The notes below the pieces were generated by a model, which was not told the DNA's origin, did not search any database, and saw only the letters and a program-made list of their open reading frames with translations. Of a stretch of DNA of 64,000 nt, positions 5,143-52,852 are shown one piece after another (position 1 is the stretch's first letter; every line of letters starts with the position of its first letter). A program made the position numbers and the translations under genes. This DNA comes from Cordylochernes scorpioides (lineage: Eukaryota > Arthropoda > Arachnida > Pseudoscorpiones > Chernetidae), in NCBI GenBank assembly GCA_030710605.1, contig CP092870.1, positions 56,257,532-56,321,531 on the forward strand. Direction: 5' to 3'.

Positions 5143-5352
5143 AAATTAAATTTAAAAAATGGCTAACGTAACCATATATTTTCCGAACATATTAGGAAAA
5201 ATGGCATTTCCTGATCATGCAAATAAAGTTGCTGATGGCTTGCCCCAACTTTTGCGCCTTTTTTTCTTAATTTATCCACCTAATCCAAGTACAAATTCAC
5301 TTTTTGTACTATTTTTCACATATTATACATATGTACATTAATCAAAAAATAT

Positions 5353-5612
5353 GTCCAGGGTAGCCTAGTGGACATGGCATCTGCCCGGTAAGCAAAACAC
5401 TGTGGGTTCGTTTCCCATCCCTGGACACTTTTATTTTTCCGTTTATCATTACACTTCACAATTCATCCTTTCATACTTCATCTCTAAGGTTAGAAATAAT
5501 CGTTATTTCTCCTTAAAATAAATTTCGACTTTTCGTTCAAAAGAAACACATACGGGATAATTTTCAAATGTGTCGTTCTACAATCATAAGCCGCATTATA
5601 TTGTATTATAAA
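5353..5612 (+). mobile_element. tRNA-derived SINE (SINE1), head plus body
   Basis: The 74-bp head (5353-5426) can fold as a tRNA: acceptor GTCCAGG pairs with CCTGGAC, the A box is TAGCCTAGTGG, and the T arm/B box is GGGTTCGTTTCCC. The anticodon stem is mismatched and the base before the GGT anticodon position is C instead of T, so a working tRNA-Thr is unlikely. A ~185-bp body follows ('atcgttatttctccttaaa' and so on). Head and body recur together at 52099-52340, and the body recurs at 55625-55735. Confidence 0.75.
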
Positions 5613-6327
5613 TCTCTCTATATATATTAAAATTTATTCATATTTGTATATAACCTTATATGGACGTTATAATAAAGTAGTTTCAATATATCCTCAAGAC
5701 AAATAGATAAATAATACATGACAAGCGGCTGACCTTACCAGCCAAGTATGGAAGCGATTTAACGATTATGGATAAAGAAGAAAGTAATAAAGAACATCCT
5801 TATGAATGAAGAAAAAGGTCAATATTACGTGATATCCCTTTATAATTGTGTGTAGGCAGCTACTTTCTGTGTAGGATTTGACCTATTCTGAAATTTTAGC
5901 GGCCAAATCTTCCAAAATACTATCACGATAATGAAAATGACGAGTCGTTTGGTTAGAATAGAATCATTTATTAGATATGAGCTTAAATATAGGTAAATAG
6001 TTTGGTAGATACAAAGAAGAATAGATGAACTAAGTTAAATTGATAAAAATAATTATTAATTAAGGAAGTGACTTCAAATATTCAAGCGGTTAACGATCGG
6101 CTGCTACCAAAGATGGCGGCTAATGTTTACAAACTTCCCGCCTAAAGTGCGCGCCATCTATCGGGGCTTAGGTGCATAACACTTGTCGAAAGAGATATAT
6201 GCCGATGTATTATTTATATTTAGAGGCTATATGCATTTTTGGTTATGATAATACCTATATTTGAGTATATTATAGATGAATCATATATCTTAGTTGTTAC
6301 AATAGATCTTCAATGAAATTTCAAATA
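5613..6327. other. AT-rich spacer with AGATGGCG motifs
   Basis: No gene is seen. It includes AAAGATGGCGGC (6109-6120, a match to the YY1 consensus) and GCGCCATCT (6151-6159), one of several AGATGGCGC motifs in the window. Confidence 0.4.
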
Positions 6328-6404
6328 CAAGGTTGCCCCAAAAGTTCGTAAACATATTATGATTTATATTTTGCAAGTGTTTACGAACTTTTGGGACAAC
6401 CTTG
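6328..6404. mobile_element. 77-bp mariner-type mini-MITE
   Basis: Almost entirely terminal inverted repeat: CAAGGTTG-CCCCAAAAGTTCG at the left is matched by its complement at the right, separated by a short AT spacer. TA flanks both ends (6326-6327 and 6405-6406). Larger relatives with the same ends lie at 6521, 14053, 40362 and 53737. Confidence 0.85.
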
Positions 6405-6520
6405 TAATTCTGAAACTTGGCCCACCTACTGATTGGCCACCCTTGATAGAAAAACATCAGAGATTAAATCATTCTTCTATAAGAATTCTGTTATAATTTT
6501 ACCAAGGTTACCAATATTAA

Positions 6521-6783
6521 CAAGATTGTCCTAAAAGTTCGTAAACACTTGCAAAATATAAATCATAATATTATGATACATTAGCGCGCCATCTGTTATT
6601 AAAATTCGAAACTATTATAGACGTATATGATTCTTTTAAAAATTGAAGAATATCGACTGCCTTTGAATTTTTACATTGCAGTAAGGGCAGTAGATATTGT
6701 TTAATTTTTAAAAGAATCATACGCGTCTATATTAATTTCGAATTTTCAAAAATCAAATGTTTACGAACTTTTGGGACAACCTT
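6521..6783. mobile_element. Mariner-type MITE with internal foldback
   Basis: The ends CAAGATTGTCCTAAAAGTTC and its right-hand complement match the mini-MITE at 6328. Internally, 'gaaactattatagacg' and its complement around 6720-6745 form a second inverted repeat about a centre containing 'cagtaagggcag'. This looks like one element inside another. No transposase is present. Confidence 0.7.
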
Positions 6784-6842
6784 ATATTACAGGAAGATTA
6801 CGGTTGAGATTTGTTCTTACAATTAAAATAAATCTTTTTTAC

Positions 6843-7140
6843 ACTGGCCGAAAAATCTTTAATTTAAATTGAATTTAATTTAAGAACTATGAATGCCGGC
6901 CAGGCAGCTTCTATCTCTACGGTAGTGAGATCTGTGGGGTGTTACGATACAAAAGGAAGTCCAAGATGGCGGATCGGGGCGGAAGAACCAGACGACGAAC
7001 CTGACCTTGGCCATTCTGTGCCAGAAGATACTTCCTGCAGCACGCTAATGGAGATCATCCACGTGTGTCGACGTTCTTCCTTCACACTTTCCTCTATCTC
7101 CCACCACCATTCACATACCGCACAGTATGCCCGACCTTGA
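6843..7140 (+). mobile_element. PLE-type terminal fragment and GC-richer sequence
   Basis: 'actggccgaa' followed by AT-rich sequence and 'gaatgccggccaggcagcct'-like DNA is a pattern shared with 44440-44480 (+), 50205-50270 (-) and 58705-58760 (+). The GC-richer remainder contains AAGATGGCGG (6963-6972) and a short open frame from 6889 that I do not recognise. Confidence 0.4.
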
Positions 7141-7235
7141 GTGATGTAAACAGCAATCATTTCTCTGCAATCACTAATGTGATGGAACAAGTGATGCTAC
7201 AAGTGAACGCTGACATGTTAACAACTGCTTCCTGT

Positions 7236-8586
7236 TAGAGAACGCTTCGTGTTTTTGCGTATCATCCTTGCGCAGAGGCCATGCTAATCTTCTCTGTATC
7301 CTTCCTATTGTAGTAGTTGTACCGCCGAACTGGTATCACAGGGGCCATGCTAATCTTCTCTGTATCCTTCCTATTGTAGTAGTTGTACCGCCGAACTGGT
7401 ATCACAGGGGCCATGCTAATCTTCTCTGTTTCCTTCCTATTGTAGTGATTGTACCGCCGAACTGGTATCACAGGAGCCATGCTAATATTCTCTGTATCCT
7501 TCCTATTGTAGTAGTTTGCCCGCCGAACTGGTATCACAGGGGCCATGCTAATATTCTCTGTATCCTTCCTATTGTAGTAGTTTGCCCGCCGAACTGGTAT
7601 CACAGGGGCCATGCTAATATTCTCTGTATCCTTCCTATTGTAGTAGTTGTACCGCCGAACAGGTATCACAGGGGCAATGCTAATCTTCTCTGTATCCTTC
7701 CTATTGTAGTAGTTGTACCGCCGAACTGGTATCACAGGGGCCATGCTAATCTTCTCTGTATCCTTCCTGTTGTAGTAGTTGTACCGTCGAACAGGTATCA
7801 CAGGGGCCATGCTAATATTCTCTGTATCCTTCCTATTGTAGTAGTTGTACCGCCGAACTGGTATCACAGGGGCCATGCTAATCTTCTCTGTATCCTTCCT
7901 GTTGTAGTAGTTGTACCGCCGAACTGGTATCACAGGAGCCATGCTAATATTCTCTGTATCCTTCCTGTTGTAGTAGTTGTACCGCCGAACTGGTATCACA
8001 GGGGCCATGCTAATCTTCTCTGTATCCATCCTATTGTAGTAGTTGTACCGCCGAACAGGTATCACAGGGGCCATGCTAATCTTCTCTGTATCCTTCCTAT
8101 TGTAGTAGTTGTACCGCAGAACTGGTATCACAGGGGCCATGCTAATCTTCTCTGTATACTTCCTATTGTAGTAGTTGTACCGCAGAACTGGTATCACAGG
8201 GGCCATGCTAATCTTCTCTGTATACTTCCTATTGTAGTAGTTGTACCGCAGAACTGGTATCACAGGGGCCATGCTAATCTTCTCTGTATACTTCCTATTG
8301 TAGTAGTTGTACCGCAGAACTGGTATCACAGGGGCCATGCTAATCTTCTCTGTATCCTTCCTATTGTAGTGATTGTACCGCCGAACTGGTATCACAGGGA
8401 CCATGCTAATCTTCTCTGTATACTTCCTATTGTAGTAGTTGTACCGCAGAACTGGTATCACAGGGGCCATGCTAATCTTCTCTGTATCCTTCCTATTGTA
8501 GTGATTGTACCGCCGAACTGGTATCACAGGGACCATGCTAATCTTCTCTGTATCCTTCCAATGTTAATATAGGTGCTGCCGAAAAA
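7236..8586 (-). repeat. U6 snRNA-derived satellite: U6 pseudogene expanded by ~20 internal 66-bp units
   Basis: Read on the minus strand, the outer parts are U6 snRNA. The 5' end (near 8586) has TTCGGCAGCACC, and the 3' end (7236-7290) has CTGCGCAAGGATGA and CACGAAGCGTTC. Between them the 5' half of U6, including GATACAGAGAAGATTAGCAT with the ACAGAGA box, is repeated with a 66-bp period (22 codons). Each unit is joined by a non-U6 linker, TGTGATACCAG. Internal units lack the U4-pairing and internal stem-loop region. Frames of 424 (minus) and 434 (plus) codons are open only because 66 is divisible by 3. The same chimeric unit recurs at 48965-49790. A complete U6 promoter was not identified. 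Confidence 0.85.
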
Positions 8587-8930
8587 GTCTTTATTATCAG
8601 TGAAATACTCAAGAAGTTTAGAGAGAGAGTTCGAATAATCTGAAAAAAAATTCTGTCATTTAAAGTTCCCTGTATAAAAAAATAGGACAGTTGTATCGGG
8701 GAATTCTGATTGAGATCTATTGAACAATCGGAATAAATATTGCCACATGGAAAATTAGGAAAGACAAACTTTAGGTTGACACGGCAATTCATTTAAGGCA
8801 AGAATGATAAACATGAATGATAAACAAAATATATGCAATGAGGAAATTTAAAAGTAGAAAAATATAAACATAAAAATGATACTATGTTAATAAAATAATA
8901 AATACTTCGCTACAATATTTACTAATCGTT
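8587..8930 (-). mobile_element. Repeat family C copy (minus orientation)
   Basis: From about 8705, the complement of sequences at 28280-28500 and 36080-36270: 'gccacatggaaaattaggaa', 'ataaacataaaaatgatac' and 'aataaatacttcgctaca'. At 46140-46450 the same family forms a foldback. It is probably a non-autonomous element with ends near TGTAGCGAAGTATTTATT. Confidence 0.6.
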
Positions 8931-8959
8931 GATTTTTTATTTATTTTATGATTGGACAA

Positions 8960-9060
8960 ATACCAATTCACGATTAATCAAGAAAAGATAACCACGTACA
9001 CATTCCAGGCTGTTGGCCCTCATCAGCCTAGTACAAACTGTACCTCAACGACCAAAAAAA
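8960..9060 (-). ncRNA. Degenerate hammerhead-ribozyme-like PLE end
   Basis: On the minus strand CUGAUGA (9020-9026) is followed by GGGC, loop CAACA and GCCU, as in the better copy at 24391-24430. The GAAAC side is altered (GGAAU), so cleavage activity is doubtful. The flanks ('tcttttcttgattaatcg' on minus) match the 10.1-kb and 24.4-kb copies. Confidence 0.5.
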
Positions 9061-9726
9061 ATCAGGTCAATTCTGGAATAATTAAAATATCAAGGTTGGT
9101 TGATATTTATTCCGATAGATGACGCAAGCCATCAGTAAAACTTTTAGTTACACGATCAGGGGAGATGTCTTTCTTTTAATTTATCAACCTGATTTCAGTA
9201 TAATTTCACTTTTGTACTATTTATTTGTTTTCTCTTTTCTGAGCGAGGATTCAGTTTCTTCTCCTGTTTCTCATTTCTTTTTAGATTCATTTCTAACAGG
9301 AGTCTGTATAAGACGGAATGTCTTAATAAAGGCTTGTGTATGTGTACTACATCTACCTTTTGTACATAGATTTCTTTCCTTTTCTTCTTTTTCTCTTTTC
9401 TAAGCGAGAATTCAGTTTCTTCCTCTGCTTCTCATATATTTTTAGATTCATTTCTAACAGCAGAATCGTCTGTATGAGACAGAATGTCTTAATAAAGGCT
9501 TGTGTGTGTAGTAACGTTTATAAATGAAAGAAACTCTTCTCATTGTCTTTTGATTTTTATTCTTTTAACAAGTAGGAAGATTATTTTCTTAATTTGACCA
9601 TATATATTGATAGGTCAGCATTGTCTATGCACACAAATATGCTTTGGATTTTTCCTAAAGAATTGTTCAAAAGAAAACTTTCTTTGTGATGAACTCATTG
9701 TTGACTTTGTATTTGAAGCAGAAGAA
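9061..9726 (+). mobile_element. LINE 3'-end copies and left arm of a large inverted repeat
   Basis: Two LINE-type 3' tails end in AAGACGGAATGTCTT plus AATAAAGG (about 9310-9340) and GAGACAGAATGTCTT plus AATAAAGG (about 9475-9505). Bases 9232-9726 reappear as complement at 10617-10965, making a diverged inverted duplication about 0.9 kb apart. Short frames here are not conserved genes. Confidence 0.65.
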
Positions 9727-10084
9727 TATGGTGATAAGATGATAAGAATGGAAATATCCAATTTGAGATGGGAAACATGTGGGCGATGACCGGCTAGCCT
9801 TGGTTAGTTGAGTCAGGACCGCCCACGGCCTTCCTGGCAACTTTCTACCTCGCCTCTCTTACTCCACTACTTTGGATGGAAATTTATTTTCTTATCTAAC
9901 GGTCTATAAACAATGAGAAATAAATAGCACAAATGTGATATTGTACTGGGATATAGTTCATAAATTAAGAAAAATACATCTCCTTATCGTGCAACTGAAA
10001 GTTTCTGATGGCTTGCGCTATTTATCGGAATAAATATCACCTATTCATTGATTTTTTTATTATTCCAGAATATTGGCTAAATAC
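9727..10084. other. Spacer in the inverted duplication
   Basis: Contains a repeat (9960-10050: 'aactgaaagtttctgatggc', 'atcggaataaat') that recurs at 10240-10340 and, reversed, at 9105-9165. No coding signal is seen. Confidence 0.4.
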
Positions 10085-10180
10085 CCATTATTGATCAATC
10101 AAGAAAAGCTAACCACATACGCTTTTCAGGCTGTTGGACCTCGTCAGCATAGTGCAAGCTGTACCTCAACGACCAAAAAA
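10085..10180 (-). ncRNA. Hammerhead-ribozyme-like PLE end, core nearly intact
   Basis: On the minus strand: CUGACGA (10141-10147), GGUC, loop CAACA, GCCU, then GAAA. Stem II has one mismatch. Flanks match 8960-9060 and 24360-24480. It is probably derived from a Penelope-like retroelement terminal repeat. The activity-determining residues CUGANGA and GAA are present, but stem III is irregular. Confidence 0.5.
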
Positions 10181-10616
10181 AACTTGTCATTCAGGCATCC
10201 TGAAAATCATCAAACGGTAGTTAAGACCAGAATTGCGTGAAACCGCGACACATGATGCATAAATTATGAAAAAAGGCATCTCCTTATCGTTCAACTGAAA
10301 GTTGCTGATGGCTTGCGCCATCTATCGGAATAAATAGTCTCTAAATAGTCTATTCATTCAAGGAAAAGATAAATGATAGAAGGTTAATCATTTATCACGC
10401 TATACCCTGCTGTCAGAAACGGTCAAAAGTAAACACAGTGCAATAGATTTATACAAATTTTGTGAGAAGGCGAGAAGGATAAAAGGTATTATATTTAAGA
10501 ATACTATTGTAAAAGGCTTCAAATCCCAAAAGTTTGAGTTAATTCAAGAAATTTATCCTCGATGTTTTTATTTTCTCAAATGATCTAATGTAAAGGATTA
10601 TAATCTTTTTAGAACG
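10181..10616. other. Dispersed repeat piece and AT-rich DNA
   Basis: 10240-10340 repeats 9960-10050 and carries GCGCCATCT (10315-10323). The remainder is unassigned. Confidence 0.4.
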
Positions 10617-11140
10617 TAAGTTCTTCTGCTTCAAATACAAATCCAACCATGAGTTCATCACAAAGAAAGTTTTCTTTCAAACAATTCTTTAGGAGTAATC
10701 CAAAGGATATTCTCGGGCAGAGACAATGTTCGACCTGTCAATATATATGGTCAAATTAAGAAGATAGTAATCCCCCTATTCGTTAAAAGAATAAAAATCA
10801 AAAGACAATGAGAAGAGTTTCTTTCATTTATAAACGTTAGTACACACACACAAGCCTTTATTAAGACATTCCGTCTTATACAGACGATTCTGCTGTTCGA
10901 AATGAATCTAAACAGAAATGAGAAGCAGGAGAAGAAATTGAATCCTCGCTCAGAAAAGAGAAAAAGAAGAAAAGAAAAAAGTTTGAAAGAGATTTTGAAT
11001 AGAAAAAGAAAACGAGGAAAGAATATCTATGTACAAAAGTTAAGATTATATACATCGTTTTTCGTGCATGGAACACAGTGGAGAAGTAGACTATTGAGTA
11101 AATGGTTGCAACTTGTGAAGAAGAAAATATTTTCACTATA
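10617..11140 (-). mobile_element. LINE 3'-end copy, right arm of the inverted duplication
   Basis: Complement of 9232-9726 up to about 10965. The minus strand shows AAGACGGAATGTCTTAATAA followed by AGGCTTGTGTGTG at 10850-10885, a hairpin joined to a polyadenylation-type signal. The purine-rich lysine/arginine frame at 10902-11141 is a by-product of the repeat. Confidence 0.65.
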
Positions 11141-11149
11141 AACGTTTGT

Positions 11150-11490
11150 ACAACTCCGCCTTTGCCGGTCCCAAGCCCGGATGAAAAAGGAGGAGGGGGA
11201 GCAGTAACAAGTTCACTAAAAAACCTGGGCTCAACTGGCCCGGCTGATAGTACCCTGTAAGGGCTTCTGATCCAGGGATACAGGATGAGCAGCGTTTGAA
11301 CTCCATGTTAGGAGCGGCTGCACATGGCGTCTGTTCCTCATGTCAGAGGCGATCATTTCTTTTGGAGCTAAGTCGGCCTGCCACTGAGTAGTGCTCCCAG
11401 TCTTAATGACAAAGGTAGACGCATTCTACTTCACCCAATCATGATGGTTGTCAAATCTCTGTGGAGATAAGAAAGAAGAAGAAGACTTTA
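11150..11490 (+). mobile_element. LINE 3'-region repeat B
   Basis: The 'cccggatgaaaaaggaggag' to 'ctcccagtcttaatgac' block is repeated in reverse at 13395-13690 and partly at 12760-12895 and 36645-36745. It ends in an (aag)-rich tail. Its position near LINE tails suggests a LINE 3' region; I see no intact protein. Confidence 0.55.
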
Positions 11491-12064
11491 GTAGTAGACT
11501 TACAGTAAGGTCTGTAGAGATATTATATTGATGATATATATAAAAAGAAAGACATTGCCAGAAATAATTGTTACAATTTTTATCTCGATAGATGGAATTT
11601 AAATTTATAAATGTAAAATGGATTTTTAACTAAAGCTTTTTATCGGTTTATTACAAAAACGTTCACAATCGGCTGAGAATCCATCCTTAAAAAAAAAGAA
11701 GAAGAAGAAGAAGTGTTATCGTTTTAGTCAAGCAAGATAAAAAAAAATGTTTTTTTTTTTTTATTTCGCAGTAAAGATGAGACTTATGTAAGAGGTTAAC
11801 AAGAGAAGGTTCGAAAAACGAAATTGAAAGAAAAGAAAAAAAGCAGAAGAAGTATTAGGTCAGTGGGCAGGGAAGGTAATAAAGGACCAAAGTTCCAGGA
11901 TCCGCCTTGGGATAAAAAATTATGGGTGCACTTTGTCTTCCTAGCTTCTTAGGATGATCGTTTGGAGCGGTTCGTGGAATGGCCTTGCAGAATTTGATCG
12001 TCTGTAATAATTCTGGGCGGTTTTGGAAGTCGGTCATTCTGGGTAATGTTGCCTCCTTTCTTTA
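11491..12064. other. AT-rich DNA with (aag)n and poly-T runs
   Basis: Low-complexity tracts around 11690-11770. Bases 11855-12037 are less biased but unrecognised. No gene is supported. Confidence 0.4.
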
Positions 12065-46450: not shown

Positions 46451-46558
46451 GCTACATATATTATTATTGACTGTATTGACTCATCTATTGTGAACTCTAC
46501 TCATCCCCAGCAGACACCATCAAAAATCTCAAACTTTACAAGCTTGATACTCTAATAT

Positions 46559-46763
46559 TGGGGTCGGCAAACTTTTGAGTCGGAAGAGTCAAAAATTAAA
46601 ATTTACAAAATTTCAAAGTTTTTTAAAGAGCCACACATTTTTTCTTACCAACAATAAATAGTACTCACATAAATAATATTTACGTATGGAACTATATAAA
46701 GAGCCGCAGCTTCACATCCAAAGAGCCGCATGTGGCTCACGAGCCGCAGTTTTCCGACCCCTG
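46559..46763. mobile_element. hAT-type MITE
   Basis: Ends GGGGTCGGCAAACTTTTGAG and TTTTCCGACCCCTG, with the internal repeated 'gagccgca' motif. About 205 bp, nearly identical in layout to 59007-59212. Confidence 0.85.
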
Positions 46764-47104
46764 AACTAGACAATTATTTAAAGAAATCAATACTATAATA
46801 TTTATGTGGTTTATTTAACTGTTGTCATGTAAAAATATTTATATAAATAAAGGAAAACAAACACAAAAATGACATGGCAATTTTGATCAAGACAATTACC
46901 ATCTTTGTCAAAATATATTGAAATTCTAAGTCAAACGAGCGGTCGAAAAAACATAAAATATTAACGATTTTCATGAATAGTATAGAATGAAAACTTTTGT
47001 ATGTATTGATAAGATGTCAATAAAAATCTATTAATTGTCTAAAACCTTTTTGGAATTACACAAGCAAAAATCTGCCAAAAGTCAATAAATAAATATATTT
47101 ATCT
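46764..47104. other. No feature recognised
   Basis: AT-rich; no frame or repeat assigned. Confidence 0.4.
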
Positions 47105-47342
47105 AACCAACAACAACAAAAGGCTTTATTAAGACCTTTTAGTCTTATACAGATTCTCCAAGTACAGAAATGTAGGGTACATACAGGAATAACAGTAATA
47201 TTACCAGTAATCAACAACAACAAAAAGCTTTATTAGGACCTTTTAGTCTTGTACAGATTTTCCAAACAGAAATGTAGGATACATGTAGGAAAAACAGCAA
47301 TAGTACCTTAATGGTAATATACATTTATCTAACCATCCCTGC
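47105..47342 (-). mobile_element. Two LINE-type 3' tails (minus)
   Basis: Complement of AAGACTAAAAGGTCTTAATA AAG tails at about 47117-47155 and 47226-47265, about 110 bp apart with similar upstream sequence ('cagaaatgtagg'). Hence a tandem duplication of a tail, head-to-head with the LINE body at 47343. Confidence 0.65.
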
Positions 47343-47913
47343 ATCAAGCAGAAGGAATTGTAATATACAGTGACTCTAGATCCGTAATAGAAGCGATTCA
47401 GAAGAGCAATACTAAAATCACGCAGAAAATACATACACTCGTTACTAAACCAACTGGAACCATTGGAGAAGAACTGCATTCTACAATGGATTCCTGCCCA
47501 TGTTGGGATCGGGGGTAATGAGATGGCAGATGAATTGGCAAAGGAAACCAGAAAGTTGAGTCAAAGGAAAGAACAAATGTCAGTATTTGACGCTGATGCT
47601 TTGGCAAAATACAACGAAAGATAAGGAAAGATAAAATATGCGAAATAAACTCTCTGAGAGAATAACTACAAAAACTATAACAAAACTCAGAACGAAACAC
47701 TATGAAGGAATGACAATACATCCAGATGGCACAAGAACCTATAGTACATGCAACAATGGTCCCGGTGTGGAACTAACACCTATCCACATATTCTCATATC
47801 CAGCATTGGCCGCAGCCTTGCAGAAAATTGACATGAATCCAGAACAGCAGCTTTACCCACCCAAGATAGAGGAGATCGTGACTGCTGTGATAGAGATGTA
47901 TGGAGACATCTGA
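47343..47913 (+). pseudogene. LINE ORF2 remnant: RNase H domain and C-terminal finger, frameshifted
   Basis: YSDSRSVIEAIQ begins at about 47366 and WIPAHVGIGGNEMADELA at about 47487. These are RNase H motifs, including the catalytic D of the SDS segment and the HVG...GNE.AD block. They lie in different phases, and a further shift precedes the last open part (47638-47913), which ends MYGDI-stop. The finger present at 39.3 kb has lost cysteines here (CNNG for CNNC, SYPA for SCPA). Upstream reverse transcriptase is absent. It is a dead I/R1-group-like LINE. Confidence 0.8.
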
Positions 47914-48265
47914 GGCTCTTCATTGGACACAACAACAACAACAGAAAATTGACATGGACCCAGAACAGCAGCTTTACACACCCAAGATAGAGAACGACTG
48001 CTGTAATAGAGATGCATGGAGACATCTGAGGTTCTTCATTGGACACGACAACAACAGAAAATTGACCCAGAACAGCAGCGTTACCCACCCAAGAACATTA
48101 TGACTGCTGTGATAGAGATGCATGGAGACATCTGAGGTTCTTCATTGGACACGACAACAACAGAAAATTGACCCAGAACAGCAGCTTTACACACCCAAGA
48201 AAATTACGACTGCTGTGATAGAGATGTATGGAGACATCTGAGGATCTTCATTGGACACGACAACA
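47914..48265 (+). repeat. Tandemly re-copied LINE 3' end (three extra copies)
   Basis: The last ~110 bp of the LINE ('cagaaaattgacat', 'cagaacagcagctttac', 'gatagagatgtatggagaca', 'ctgaggctcttcattggaca', (caa)n) is repeated at about 47940, 48053 and 48165 after the original. Copies include the stop codon and the (CAA) tail, so each is a complete 3' terminus. Confidence 0.75.
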
Positions 48266-48964
48266 ACATTCAGTATATCTTTCCTAACTTTATGTCAAAC
48301 AAATAACGGCTGTCAATAAAATTATTTGCAAACAATCTTACAGTGATTATAGGTGAGAGTATATGTAGATAGGGAAGGAAGGGTAGATGGTAACTACAAC
48401 GTGACCTCAGCAGGCAGCGTGTGACGGCGGCGTCTACCGATAGACAATGGTCGGTGGGGTGAACGACCTTGGCCCCATAATGAGCTCTACTCCCCCGGAA
48501 GCAATTCCCTTACTTTTCATTACCAACGGCCGGCTTTCAGGAAGTAAGAAACAATGCTTCTAGACGGACGAATGGACAAACCAGTTTTATCCCCAAAGAA
48601 ACTAATCCGAAGAAATAAACCTGTTCCTTTCCTCAAATTCGAATATCTGAGACTTTACTTCCCGGATAGACATGCTATAAGAAATTCTATACAGATTGCT
48701 TTATATGTCAAACGAAATTTGCTTTTATGCCTTCACCATACGACTAAAATTATAATAACGAATAGATTCAAAAAGGATAAGTTTCTTTATTTGAAAAATC
48801 AATTCGAGCTTTCGGGCGCAAGCTGCCCTTCTACAGGAATAATAGATACAACTAAAATGTTCTTTTTGTGACACAAAACTTTGCCGTTTGATAACAAAAA
48901 AAGAAGAAAAAAAAAGGTTTTGAGACTTAGTTGAAAACTGTGAAATATATATAACAGCTATCAC
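48266..48964. other. Unassigned DNA with a PLE-type end near 48790-48850 (minus)
   Basis: On minus, CCTGTAGAAGGGC, a short loop, GCCCGAAAGC and then AAATAAAG form the PLE terminal hairpin layout, with U in place of A at core position 6. 48395-48545 is GC-richer. The plus frame 48554-48871 (105 codons) has no recognised domain and runs through the PLE end. Confidence 0.4.
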
Positions 48965-49790
48965 GCTTATTCGGCGGTACAACTACTACAATAGGAAGGA
49001 TACAGCGAAGATTAGCATGGACCCTGTGATACCAGTTCGGCGGTACAACTACTACAATAGGAAGGATACAGAGAAGATTAGTATGGCCCCTGTGATATCA
49101 GTTCGGCGGTACAACTACTACAATAGGAAGGATACAGAGAAGATTAGCATGGACCCTGTGATACCAGTTCGGCGGTACAACTACTACAATAGGAAGGATA
49201 CAGAGAAGATTAGCATGGCCCCTATGATACCAGTTCGGCGGTACAACTACTACAATAGGAAGGATACAGAGAAGATTAGCATGGCTCCTGTGATACCAGT
49301 TCGGCGGTACAACTACTACAATAGGAAGGATACAGAGATGATTAGCATGGCCCCTGTGATATCAGTTCGGCGGTACAACTACTACAATAGGAAGGATACA
49401 GAGAAGATTAGCATGGCCCCCGTGATACCAGTTCGGCGGTACAACTACTACAATAGGAAGGATACAGAGAAGATTAGCATGGCCCCTATGATACCAGTTC
49501 GGCGGTACAACTACTACAATAGGAAGGATACAGAGAAGATTAGCATGGCCCCTGTAATACCAGTTCGGCGGTACAACTACTACAATAGGAACGACACAGA
49601 GAAGATTAGCATGGCCCCTGTGATACCAGTTCGGCGGTACAACTACTACAATAGGAAGAATACAGAGAAGATTAGCATGGCCCCTGTGATACCAGTTCGG
49701 CGGTACAACTACTGCAATAGGAAGGATACAGAGAAGATTAGCATGGCCCCTGCGCAAGGATGAAACGCAAAGTTGTGCAGCGTTCCATAT
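48965..49790 (+). repeat. U6 snRNA-derived satellite, plus strand, about 12 units of 66 bp
   Basis: Begins TTCGGCGGTAC (U6 5' region). Each unit ends in ATACAGAGAAGATTAGCATG then GCCCCTGTGATACCAG and re-enters TTCGGCGG. The last unit (49740-49790) continues into genuine U6 3' sequence: CTGCGCAAGGATGA, ACGCAAAGTTGTG, AGCGTTCCATAT. The linker and unit are the same as in the minus-strand array at 7236-8586. A TATA-like 'aaatatatataa' lies at 48943-48954, closer to the expected start than in normal U6 promoters. The 248-codon frame is a by-product. Confidence 0.85.
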
Positions 49791-50204
49791 ACAACGGCTA
49801 TCTTGCCTTGTGAAAAAAAAAAAAGAAGCATTTTAGGCGAAATTGCCTTACACCTATGCATATGAAATACCACCCATTGCAATTAGGTTTATGGATATAA
49901 AAACATCTTTATTGAAAAATATGGTTAAATGTAGATGAGGAAAAATAAATAGATTATAATAAAATCATCTATTAAGTATTTACAACCTCAATTGAAAAGT
50001 GAAAGATTTGACCAACAAAGGCTTATGAAAGATGATATTTTATTCAAGCAATAGGTGCAAAAGCAATCAGACTTGCATTCCTACAGACCATCATTCGCAA
50101 TTATCTATAAAATTGCGCAGAGTACAGCGAAAGTTAGAGAAAATTCTTCCATGCCAGAGCAAGGTCTCCAGAAATTGACAGAAAATGCTTATAATTTCCA
50201 TATT
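49791..50204. other. No feature recognised
   Basis: AT-rich DNA after the U6 array, with an A run near 49815. The frame at 50055-50258 has no recognised motif. Confidence 0.4.
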
Positions 50205-50345
50205 TTTCGTTATGATAGAGGTTGCTTGTGGCGGGAATTCATATTTCCTAAAATTTAAGTTACTTCGGTCAGAAAATCTTTTTATTATATTGACGTTTTG
50301 ACAAAAATATTTTGTTATCGTCAGGAGCGAACAGAAATTAAAACA
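50205..50345 (-). mobile_element. PLE-1 terminal repeat with degenerate hammerhead core
   Basis: On minus: CUGACGA, stem II built of AACAAAA and UUUUUGU, then CAAAACGUC (the G of GAAAC is lost), an AATAAAAAG stretch, CTGACCGAAG and a flank 'gaattcccgccacaagcaac' like those at 6885 and 44450. Confidence 0.55.
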
Positions 50346-50680
50346 TTTGGTAAGGTGTTAAAAAGTATTCTAAGGTTGGAAGGGCTTTCTCACGCGATAT
50401 ATTCTTAACGCTAATTTGTAAACTGAGTTATATTGTATAAAATGAAGGTTATATTTTCCATTTAAATAAACGCTAAAACGAAGTGTAATCTATTGACGAT
50501 ATCCACAAACTATCTGACTTTTGAGTTGGCGACAAAGCCACAATATCTACCTTTATACACCAATATCCTCCCGACAAAATTTCATCTATGAGGAATGTTG
50601 ATTAAATAGATTACTTTAGTAGAGATTTTGCTACATTCAGAACAGCATACTTCATCGGAGAAGCATTAAATCAAATATAT
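50346..50680. other. No feature recognised
   Basis: AT-rich; the first ~100 bp may continue the PLE copy ('catttggtaaggtgttaaaa' resembles 44060-44080). Confidence 0.4.
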
Positions 50681-51085
50681 AAACTCATAGGCAAAACTTA
50701 AGTAAGTTGTACCTTTTCGCATGTATATTGGGATTCAGAAAATAATTCTGAAAGATATTACAGTGATCTTTATTGAAGACACAAGATAACTAAGTGTGTA
50801 TACACTCATGGACAAAACTTAAGGAATTTGTACCTTTTAGCCATGTATATCGGGATTCAGACAATAACTCTGAAAGATATTTGATAAACAATAACCTTTA
50901 TTGAAGACACACGAGATAACCCAGTGTGTAACACTCATGGACATAAGGAAGTTGTACCTTTTAGCAAGTCTATTGGGATTCAGAAAATAACTCTGAAAGA
51001 TATTACAGTGACCTTTATTGAAAACATACGAGATAACCAAGTATGAACAAAATTTCCTCTGTCTTCAAAGTTTTGTTAATGAGTG
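50681..51085 (-). mobile_element. MITE-1 copy (minus), about 3 internal units
   Basis: Starts 'actcataggcaaaactta' and ends 'gttttgttaatgagtg' followed by TA. Units differ by short deletions (one lacks part of 'acaaaacttaagg'). Confidence 0.7.
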
Positions 51086-51403
51086 TATATTCTGTCATAC
51101 AATTTCTGTCAAAAGGAAGATCAATAATAGACAAATGTGGCCTTACTTCGTCCCCAATTATCGCTGCTGGGGAGGGGCCGAATCCCCCTCAGCTTTACTT
51201 ATCGAAGGAAGAGGGATCTTCGTGGTGAGGAAATAATGACAGGGCTGAGAGATGTTCCCCGAACTGCCATCTTCTTATCATCATTTAGCGCCTTTCGTGA
51301 AGGTAATCTTAGTGAGATTACGCCTGTGAACTTAATAAGATGTTCGCTTTTTAAGAATGTACGAGCTTTCTCATCTCTTGTCTATCAAATTATATTGACA
51401 AAC
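51086..51403. other. Unassigned DNA with overlapping short frames
   Basis: Plus frames at 51018-51236 and 51137-51421 overlap in different phases; no domain is recognised. Confidence 0.3.
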
Positions 51404-51415
51404 ATTTGCAGTTTT

Positions 51416-51563
51416 CAATAAAATAATACCATGTATCAATATTGAGTAAAATTAATCAGGCCTCCAGGGAGAGGCGTTTCGCTGTGGAGGGACGCCCGAA
51501 AGCTAGAGAATAAAAATGTTTTGAAAAGACACTTTTCCCTGGAGGCCTGATTAATTTTACTCA
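51416..51563. mobile_element. PLE-type foldback with perfect 12-bp target duplication
   Basis: 148 bp flanked by ATTTGCAGTTTT at 51404-51415 and 51564-51575. Inverted arms GAGTAAAATTAATCAGGCCT and its complement surround a centre with GACGCCCGAAAGCT and then GAATAAAAATGTTTTG. A longer relative is at 56048-56313. Confidence 0.7.
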
Positions 51564-51689
51564 ATTTGCAGTTTTATCTTATAAGTTTCTAACGGGAAGA
51601 ATTTTGTTTTCGTTTGTTAAGTGAACCAATCTCTCAAGCCTTCTAATTGGATGAATATGGTCATGTTTGTATATAAGAGAAAGCTAAGG

Positions 51690-51884
51690 CAGGGGTCGGC
51701 AAACTATGCCACATGCGGCTCTTTTGATGTGAAGCTCTTTATATATAGTTCCATACGTAAATATGATTTATACGAGTATTATTTATTTCTGGCAAGAAAA
51801 AAATGTTGTGGCTCTTTAAAAACTTTGAAATTTTGTAAATTGTAATTTTTGACTCTTATGACTGAAAAGTTTGCCGACATCTGG
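51690..51884. mobile_element. hAT-type MITE, opposite orientation
   Basis: Starts CAGGGGTCGGCAAACTATGC and ends AGTTTGCCGACATCTG; the body is the complement of 46559-46763. Confidence 0.85.
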
Positions 51885-52098
51885 GTCTAGTGTAAAGTTG
51901 TAGTCACGACGGGTTGTAGATCTGAACCAGTTGACCAGGAATGCTGGCAGAGAGTCTTGCCAACGATGATGGATTAAGCTAAGCCAGTCCATGTAGCAAG
52001 AATGTCTGCATTATGTGCCTAAGAAAAGCTGAGAAGTAGAAGCTGCATTATATTGTATTATAAATTACTTTATATAATATTTACGAACGGAAAAATAT
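51885..52098. other. Unassigned DNA before SINE1
   Basis: 'gcattatattgtattataaa' at about 52046 is the same sequence that ends the SINE1 copy at 5.6 kb, so SINE1 may have entered an older copy. Confidence 0.4.
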
Positions 52099-52340
52099 GT
52101 CCAGGGTAGCTTAGTGGACATGGCATCTGCCCGGTAAGTGGAACACTATGGGTTCGATTCCCATCCCTGGACATTTTATTTTTCTGTTTATCATTATTAC
52201 TCTTCACAATTCATCCTATCATACTTCATCCTTAAGGTTAGAAATAATCGTTATTTCTCCTTAAAATAAATTTCGATTTTTCGTTCAAAAGAAACATTTG
52301 CGGTATAATTGTCGAATTTCGTTCTACAAGAATAAGAAGT
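52099..52340 (+). mobile_element. tRNA-derived SINE (SINE1), second copy
   Basis: Head 52099-52172 has acceptor GTCCAGG/CCTGGAC, A box TAGCTTAGTGG and B box GGGTTCGATTCCC, closer to consensus than the 5.4-kb copy. The body matches to 'cgttctaca'. Confidence 0.75.
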
Positions 52341-52852
52341 GATCCACTTTCTTTGTTTCATCCAAGCATTGAGGACAAATTGGATCCATTTCAGGATGCC
52401 AGAGATCAAAATCATTCCGAACATACCAGTATGGTCGTTTTATAATATGCTACCTATCAACTCATATAATTCATTTTGGCTGAAAATTTTACTTCTCGAC
52501 ATATTTTGCAATTTGACCATTGATAATTTCAGCATGAAGGCATACTTTGATTTGTTAATAAGAATTACACTCATGGACAAAACTTAAGAAAGTGAAAATT
52601 CTTTAATGTCGCATGATTGTCTGCTTTTTTTAAGGAGACAGAGGCAATTTTTTTCTTTACAGATCCAGGTACACCCTTTTTATATTGTAGCATAGAAAAT
52701 TAGTCTTGGAATATCTCAAGATGTAAAAGTATTTATTGATGACGTCAGTACGGCTAGTCGACAATTATCAACCATCTACAGCTAGAGAATCTTGAACAAG
52801 CAAGTAAAGAAATATTTTGATGATGATTTCACAAATACAGAGTAATATATTA
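52341..52852. mobile_element. Unassigned DNA, MITE-1 stub and repeat G (minus)
   Basis: 52567-52640 is the left end of MITE-1 ('actcatggacaaaacttaag'). 52650-52685 resembles the arm of the 36961 foldback ('ttctttacagatcca'). 52690-52850 is the complement of 26310-26485. Confidence 0.5.

Follow-up and report, generated by a model that had tools for sequence, protein, structure and literature searches.

How does a spliceosomal RNA become the repeat unit of a tandem array? This question is raised by a locus in the window, the whole stretch of 64,000 nucleotides analysed here (C8:56257532-56321531, from a genome of 2.62 Gb in 24 contigs), where the initial annotation had described U6 snRNA as internally amplified into a satellite. 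We located 20 anchors on the minus strand at 8589-7231 (locus 1), and 19 of 19 spacings between them were exactly 66 bp, in agreement with the roughly 20 copies of the U6 5' half reported earlier. The units are arranged head to tail, each consisting of U6 nt 12-68 and a 9-nt linker, TGATACCAG. TRF placed the array at 7273-8559 with a period of 66, 19.5 copies and 95% matches. In ungapped comparison, the 20 units matched U6 nt 12-68 at 47-52 of 57 positions. Chance is excluded by the genome-wide junction matches, for which the reversed control gave 0. At the gathering threshold of cmscan, 15 of the 18 internal units matched the U6 5' half with 45.4-50.2 bits; the first unit is absent from these rows, and its score comes from a separate cmscan. 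Locus 1 reads as follows:

8525..8589, minus strand: first unit, U6-like in type, with a diverged U6 5' end (TTCGGCAGCACCTATATTAACATTGG) ahead of the linker (48.2 bits in cmscan against U6 model 1-65)

7337..8524, minus strand: 18 internal units of 66 bp, U6 nt 12-68 with T24A, A25C, A31C and T35A (plus C40G in the locus consensus), joined by TGATACCAG (spacings, consensus against U6, cmscan)

7231..7336, minus strand: last unit, a derived U6 5' half continuing into the U6 3' half (cmscan 81.1 bits, E 5.2e-19, U6 model 1-105)

Locus 1 is not like a continuous U6 of about 105 nt, the 5' half occurring 20 times ahead of the 3' half. The array had been described as bracketed by authentic U6 ends, which is correct for the U6 3' half, recognisable by BLAST to about nt 101, but not for the 5' end, which is a diverged U6 start. 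The linker had been taken as absent from U6; this holds for the 9-nt TGATACCAG, but the CCCCTG part is U6 sequence. In addition, TTCGGCGGTACA, proposed as the diagnostic junction, is not diagnostic because it is native U6 5' sequence in the present genome, and TTCGGCGG, a piece of the same proposed junction, is the native U6 5' end of the species. By eye, the start of locus 1 had suggested a U5 chimera, but cmscan up to E 10 gave this no support. No origin of TGATACCAG was found; a likeness to pieces of U1, U4 and U6 was considered and dropped.

The window holds a sister array, whose consensus unit does not differ from the one at locus 1:

48964..49790, plus strand: locus 2, a 12-unit array that retains the U6 3' half and some of the U6 leader (CGCTTA) (cmscan, consensus comparison, array parsing)

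48947..48962, plus strand: candidate target-site duplication, 5' copy ATATATAACAGCTATC, 14 of 16 positions identical to the 3' copy

49787..49802, plus strand: candidate duplication, 3' copy ATATACAACGGCTATC, overlapping the end of the U6 tail (pairing with the 5' copy)

Compared with native U6, the consensus unit of both loci carries five changes in 57 positions, namely T24A, A25C, A31C, T35A and C40G. BLAST of the immediate flanks of both loci (8561-12000, 5201-7280, 46501-48960 and 49741-52500) revealed no shared neighbouring sequence except a 31-bp piece of U6 tail, and the remaining flank-to-flank matches were repeats that also occur elsewhere in the window. The duplication score of locus 2, whose duplication coordinates were counted off the printed sequence, was reached by 18 of 2000 shuffles and 3 of 552 cross-pairs. 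No convincing target-site duplication was detected at locus 1, where the flanking direct repeats fell below the 99th percentile of the 552 cross-pairs.

We searched the whole genome for the junction CTGTGATACCAGTTCGGCGGTACAA with up to 2 mismatches. The results showed 9,255 + 10,167 = 19,422 matches, amounting to about 1.28 Mb at 66 bp each, versus 0 for the reversed control. The proposed amplification of U6 into a satellite was thereby borne out, as a genome-wide family and not a single locus. The repeats are satellite-like, with a constant 66-bp length, head-to-tail order and homogenisation within the locus, and the arrays read comprised 2 to 74 units over 158 to 4,913 bp on many contigs. 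Linker-plus-unit starts (up to 1 mismatch) were of the derived type in 13,728 cases versus 120 of the exact-U6 type, 39 of the latter being exact. Strict array starts with the U6 leader numbered 168 genome-wide; among the 100 of them listed, typing by hand gave 48 fully derived first units, 18 fully U6-like and 34 otherwise. The changes T24A, A25C, A31C and T35A dominated in the 349 exact-length units out of 368 from 16 arrays, with C40G in 122 of the 349. A pattern for the array 3' end, with up to 3 mismatches, gave 2,008 matches, a figure that is unusable as an array count because plain U6 copies differ from the pattern by only 2; its 54 exact matches alone are clear array ends.

U6 promoters are external. 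By a strict pattern, 29 U6 copies had TATATAAG upstream, and in 28 of them the spacing to the U6 start was 22 nt. Those looked at were 12 monomers (7 read over their full length, and 5 whose masked middles have a length fitting one copy, one of them in L034), a truncated copy (L078) and L079. Native U6 starts with GTACACGCTTGTTCGGCGG or GTACTCGCTTGTTCGG, and the native genes read contained neither repeated 5' halves nor the linker. A search for a TATA element lying 22-30 nt upstream of an intact leader and linker returned 21 rows at 18 distinct places, none of which had TATATAAG at 22 nt; this pattern requires the exact leader and linker and misses any source with a mutated first linker. No U6-type promoter was seen in the flanks of locus 1 or locus 2. 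Because no promoter-bearing array was found, with 14 of the 29 promoter-type U6 genes looked at, a source RNA for the arrays is hypothetical. The promoter-type copies form clusters at C20:27704602-27902375 (16 of 29, GTACTCGC start) and C6:1616209-10212405 (8 of 29, GTACACGC), and the C20-type and C6-type copies differ between the TATA box and the start.

Insertion marks were assessed in 24 arrays, consisting of the 16 parsed arrays minus the duplicate locus E76 and of nine picked as short, paired or pristine. By local alignment, 23 of the 24 started at U6 nt 1-8. The ends lay in the U6 3' half (nt 82-110) in 19 arrays, with nt 101 as the end point in 7, and inside a unit in the other 5. In 11 arrays, locus 2 included, the flanking direct repeats scored above the 99th percentile of 552 cross-pairs, and 0 of 20,000 random re-pairings reached the total observed over the 24. 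The dispersal of the arrays and the presence of target-site duplications at many of them had gone unnoticed in the initial annotation. The duplications include:

L091: CAACAACCTGTATAC, 15 of 15 positions

L085: TATACGTATGTG, 12 of 12 positions

Array B: CAGGGTGTGTAG, 12 of 12 positions

L092: CACACTTTGTAA, 12 of 12 positions

Array C (74 units): 14 of 15 positions

L088 and L090 also pass the test, yet a duplication there is indistinguishable from repeat because both lie in CT repeats. A convincing duplication was lacking in 13 of the 24 arrays, locus 1 among them, with E71 and L089 as weak candidates.

Several arrays are close to U6. L090 has five exact U6 units with linkers, L089 has six U6 units with a single change in the last, and L084 is a dimer. 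L088 consists of one exact U6 unit, four identical derived units and an exact U6 3' half. L091 and L092 are U6-type arrays in which C22T is common to some units, and this change is also found in L001. A U6-like first unit with derived units after it was observed in C, E70, E71, E77, L084 and L088, which range from 2 to 74 units; locus 1 follows the same order if a spurious first segment of its parse is discounted.

U4 and U6 pair in the cell, and the two are fused at one array. In L001 (seven units), an exact U6 start (GTACAAGCTTG) is joined to the 5' part of U4 snRNA (RF00015, 47.5 bits, gathering 46), the sole snRNA fusion among the 13 loci scanned. In L035:3052-3391 (C1:170083000-170090000), three full-length U6 copies lie head to tail with T-run joints inside a CT repeat, the third reaching nt 101, the end point of 7 of the 24 arrays as well. 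Both the U4 fusion and the U6 trimer are consistent with a reverse transcriptase switching between RNAs. Long flanking repeats (score at least 11.5) were found at 6 of 17 plain U6 copies, L011 reaching this score only via the trimer's own T-run joint. Other arrangements of U6 were also noted: L036 holds a U6 pair; L037:3826-4027 (C5:34793000-34800000) has two opposed U6 copies around a GA repeat; the array at C1:1.00 Mb (L038/L039) ends, by eye, in an inverted U6 piece that is twin-priming-like; and in the flanks of L025 (C15:61671899) a U6 copy lies, again by eye, inside the loop formed by an inverted repeat some 40 bp long.

Private units were amplified 23, 18 and 9 times, each in one locus, indicating local amplification. 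The arrays at C4:117255232 and C4:117257845 have nearly the same 5' flank, and the first unit is U6-like in one and derived in the other; since they share the flank but not the first-unit type, units evidently turn over in place. The longest identical run of units common to two different arrays was 2 units in 16 arrays, so that no pair in this small sample appears to be a recent direct copy.

We consider it probable that the arrays are a dispersed family of U6-derived non-autonomous retroposons with a tandem-array body, inserted through RNA and later enlarged in place. A SINE would be short, dispersed and non-coding, would have an internal Pol III promoter, and would be inserted in trans by reverse transcription; the arrays are dispersed and non-coding, and duplications were seen in 11 of 24. 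In a single event, U6 would have gained an internal repeat, with TGATACCAG bridging nt 68 and nt 12 of another copy of the 5' half; we infer one origin because the linker is constant. A source locus would then make RNA from the U6 start to the U6 3' half, and LINE-type machinery acting in trans may reverse-transcribe and insert this RNA, starting inside the U6 3' part. Such insertion would leave the 12-16-bp target-site duplications, with CT repeats sometimes serving as targets. Unit number would shift through slippage of the reverse transcriptase and through unequal exchange within the locus, yielding 2 to 74 units and locus-specific variants. This reading is favoured by array ends at the U6 start and in the U6 3' half, by the duplications at 11 arrays, by the pristine short arrays and by the U4 fusion. 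Weighing against it are the 13 arrays that lack a convincing duplication, the selective choice of the nine added loci, and the lack of longer unit runs common to different arrays. More tentatively, it is possible that the reverse transcriptase slips from unit to unit on U6 dimer or oligomer RNA and lays down an array of variable length in one insertion, the trimer and the U4-U6 array chimera being by-products. If true, a spliceosomal RNA would directly seed a genome-wide satellite.

The spread could instead have taken place at the DNA level, which we regard as rather unlikely. Plain U6 pseudogenes would have been retrotransposed first, array circles or gene conversion would have invaded them via the 57-bp U6 homology, and the duplications would be those of the older pseudogene. 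Plain U6 copies with flanking repeats are indeed present in the genome, arrays are homogenised within the locus, and the C4 pair indicates that first units can turn over in place. The stretch nt 41-68 does not differ between the U6-like and the derived units, so that one crossover within it would produce exactly the order found at six loci, with the U6-like unit first and derived units after; integration of a circle predicts this common order as well. The divergence of units and that of the U6 3' half are weakly correlated (rho 0.39, p 0.14, for 16 of the 24 loci; of the others, seven had no ungapped 3'-half match and one had no scored unit), which fits DNA-level spread and does not help the retroposon reading against it. 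However, the most pristine arrays (L085, L087, L091 and L092) combine intact ends with duplications that are perfect or nearly so, unexpected for a late arrival, and the U4 fusion starts exactly at the U6 start of its array, although a U4-U6 monomer invaded later would look alike. Tandem arrays are also prone to mis-assembly, and exact unit numbers may be wrong; but an artefact as the source of the family is practically negligible in probability, given 19,422 junction matches at dispersed sites, units that differ from one another, and arrays of 2-6 units within unique flanks.

It had also been proposed that the arrays yield functional RNAs in which the numerous ACAGAGA boxes would bind splicing or LSm factors, either as decoys or as scaffolds. 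The box (nt 44-50) is intact in 320 of 402 units, and the Pol III-terminating T-run is nearly missing (TTTT in 2 of 402 units), both of which speak for such RNAs. Within arrays, however, the box varied in 2.4 of 19 loci on average and the rest of U6 in 3.2 (p 0.50), indicating no special conservation. Moreover, no U6-type promoter was found ahead of an array by the exact leader and linker pattern, and unit sequence and array length vary from locus to locus. The proposal thus fared badly, and we judge it very improbable. The arrays resemble neutral or selfish repeats more than they do working splicing RNAs; judged from sequence, a selected role, as decoy or otherwise, has no support and no function is indicated.

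That the arrays encode a repeated protein is more improbable still. The unit length of 66 is a multiple of 3, one open frame per strand runs across locus 1 (433 and 452 aa), and at most one stop interrupts the open sense frame in either window array. In that frame, 10 of 27 distinct changes are silent versus about 5.7 expected (5 of 16 at locus 1 and 5 of 11 at locus 2). However, in the third array tested, 5 stops interrupt the open sense frame and 2 of 12 changes are silent, and the excess of silent changes is larger (9 of 16 and 5 of 11) in an antisense frame with 39 and 23 stops. Because the larger excess falls in this stop-filled frame, the silent excess is no evidence of coding. In U6 itself, the frame is interrupted by a TAA stop. 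Coding potential gave weak evidence that favoured the open frame no more than the closed one.

The initial annotation knew of no described amplification of U6 into a satellite, and none was found in the open full-text literature searched, a scope outside which most subscription papers lie. The available portion of Doucet et al. 2015 (PMC4476161) describes mammalian U6 retropseudogenes and chimeras as U6 mobilised in trans, with target-site duplications, frequent 3' truncation and template switching onto other RNAs. The mammalian copies are single U6 sequences, and 'tandem' and 'dimer' are words that the paper does not use; in the present body, 66-bp units are instead arrayed in tandem through a constant linker. 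The arrays resemble U6 retropseudogenes in starting near U6 nt 1 (23 of 24 arrays); duplications were seen in 11 of 24, locus 2 included, but not at locus 1. Unlike retropseudogenes, they are not plain copies of cellular U6, with their repeated 5' halves and a linker absent from the native genes read. U6-LINE chimeras have been described, and an ancient U6-derived primate repeat is cited, in the excerpted text of PMC13174262. The primate repeat is the nearest precedent we met for a U6-derived repeat. The primate repeat of Hasnaoui et al. 2009 is reportedly a U6-LINE composite without a tandem body.

Other mobile repeats share part of the structure. SVA and LAVA are, in the accessible sections of PMC4432496, non-autonomous retrotransposons with a variable tandem array in the body, as here; the tandem part described there is not a cellular snRNA, whereas the entire present element is U6. 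Metazoan retrozymes are built of a small non-coding unit, in dimers up to large multimers, have duplications at the target when present, and are thought to spread through RNA, according to partial text of PMC7229834. In that text they have hammerhead ribozymes and a circular RNA stage, whereas the present arrays have linear U6 ends and matched no ribozyme family. A hammerhead was not found in the window, where an Rfam scan at gathering scores gave only U6 and tRNA. In 13 loci scanned at E up to 0.05, Rfam gave only U6, one U4 and one sub-threshold miRNA, and no ribozyme. SINEU (Kojima 2015) is said to comprise SINEs with snRNA-derived heads of the U1/U2 type and with other bodies and tails. 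SINEU shares snRNA sequence at the start of the retroposon but is not known to include a U6 tandem array. Pacific oyster Helentrons carry many short dispersed satellite-like arrays, as stated in part of PMC7492417. Those arrays ride a DNA element, whereas the present arrays terminate in U6 ends, and no flank is common to the two in the window. In the portion of PMC7754599 consulted, U6 appears merely as a known multigene family.

The family offers a legible case of satellite birth, in which likely intermediates persist as exact-U6 arrays, U6-like-first arrays and dimers. Because the source is the best-known spliceosomal RNA, every change can be read against it. The family would also link retrotransposition in trans to tandem amplification, processes usually treated apart. 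In such a genome, U6 copy counts may be inflated by thousands of U6 fragments.

On the minus strand of L073:86-159, a sub-threshold mir-1263 match (39.7 bits, gathering 95) is probably due to chance. The window (1-64000) is unusually rich in other tandem arrays, with periods such as 28, 33, 36, 73, 74, 76, 125, 135 and 159 bp; after merging, the TRF rows span 22,591 of 64,000 bases (35%), and a 76-bp family occurs at several places. Finally, tRNA-Thr(GGT)-like sequences lie at 5353-5428 and 52099-52173 with related downstream sequence (89% over 249 bp), and this pair is possibly a tRNA-derived SINE.
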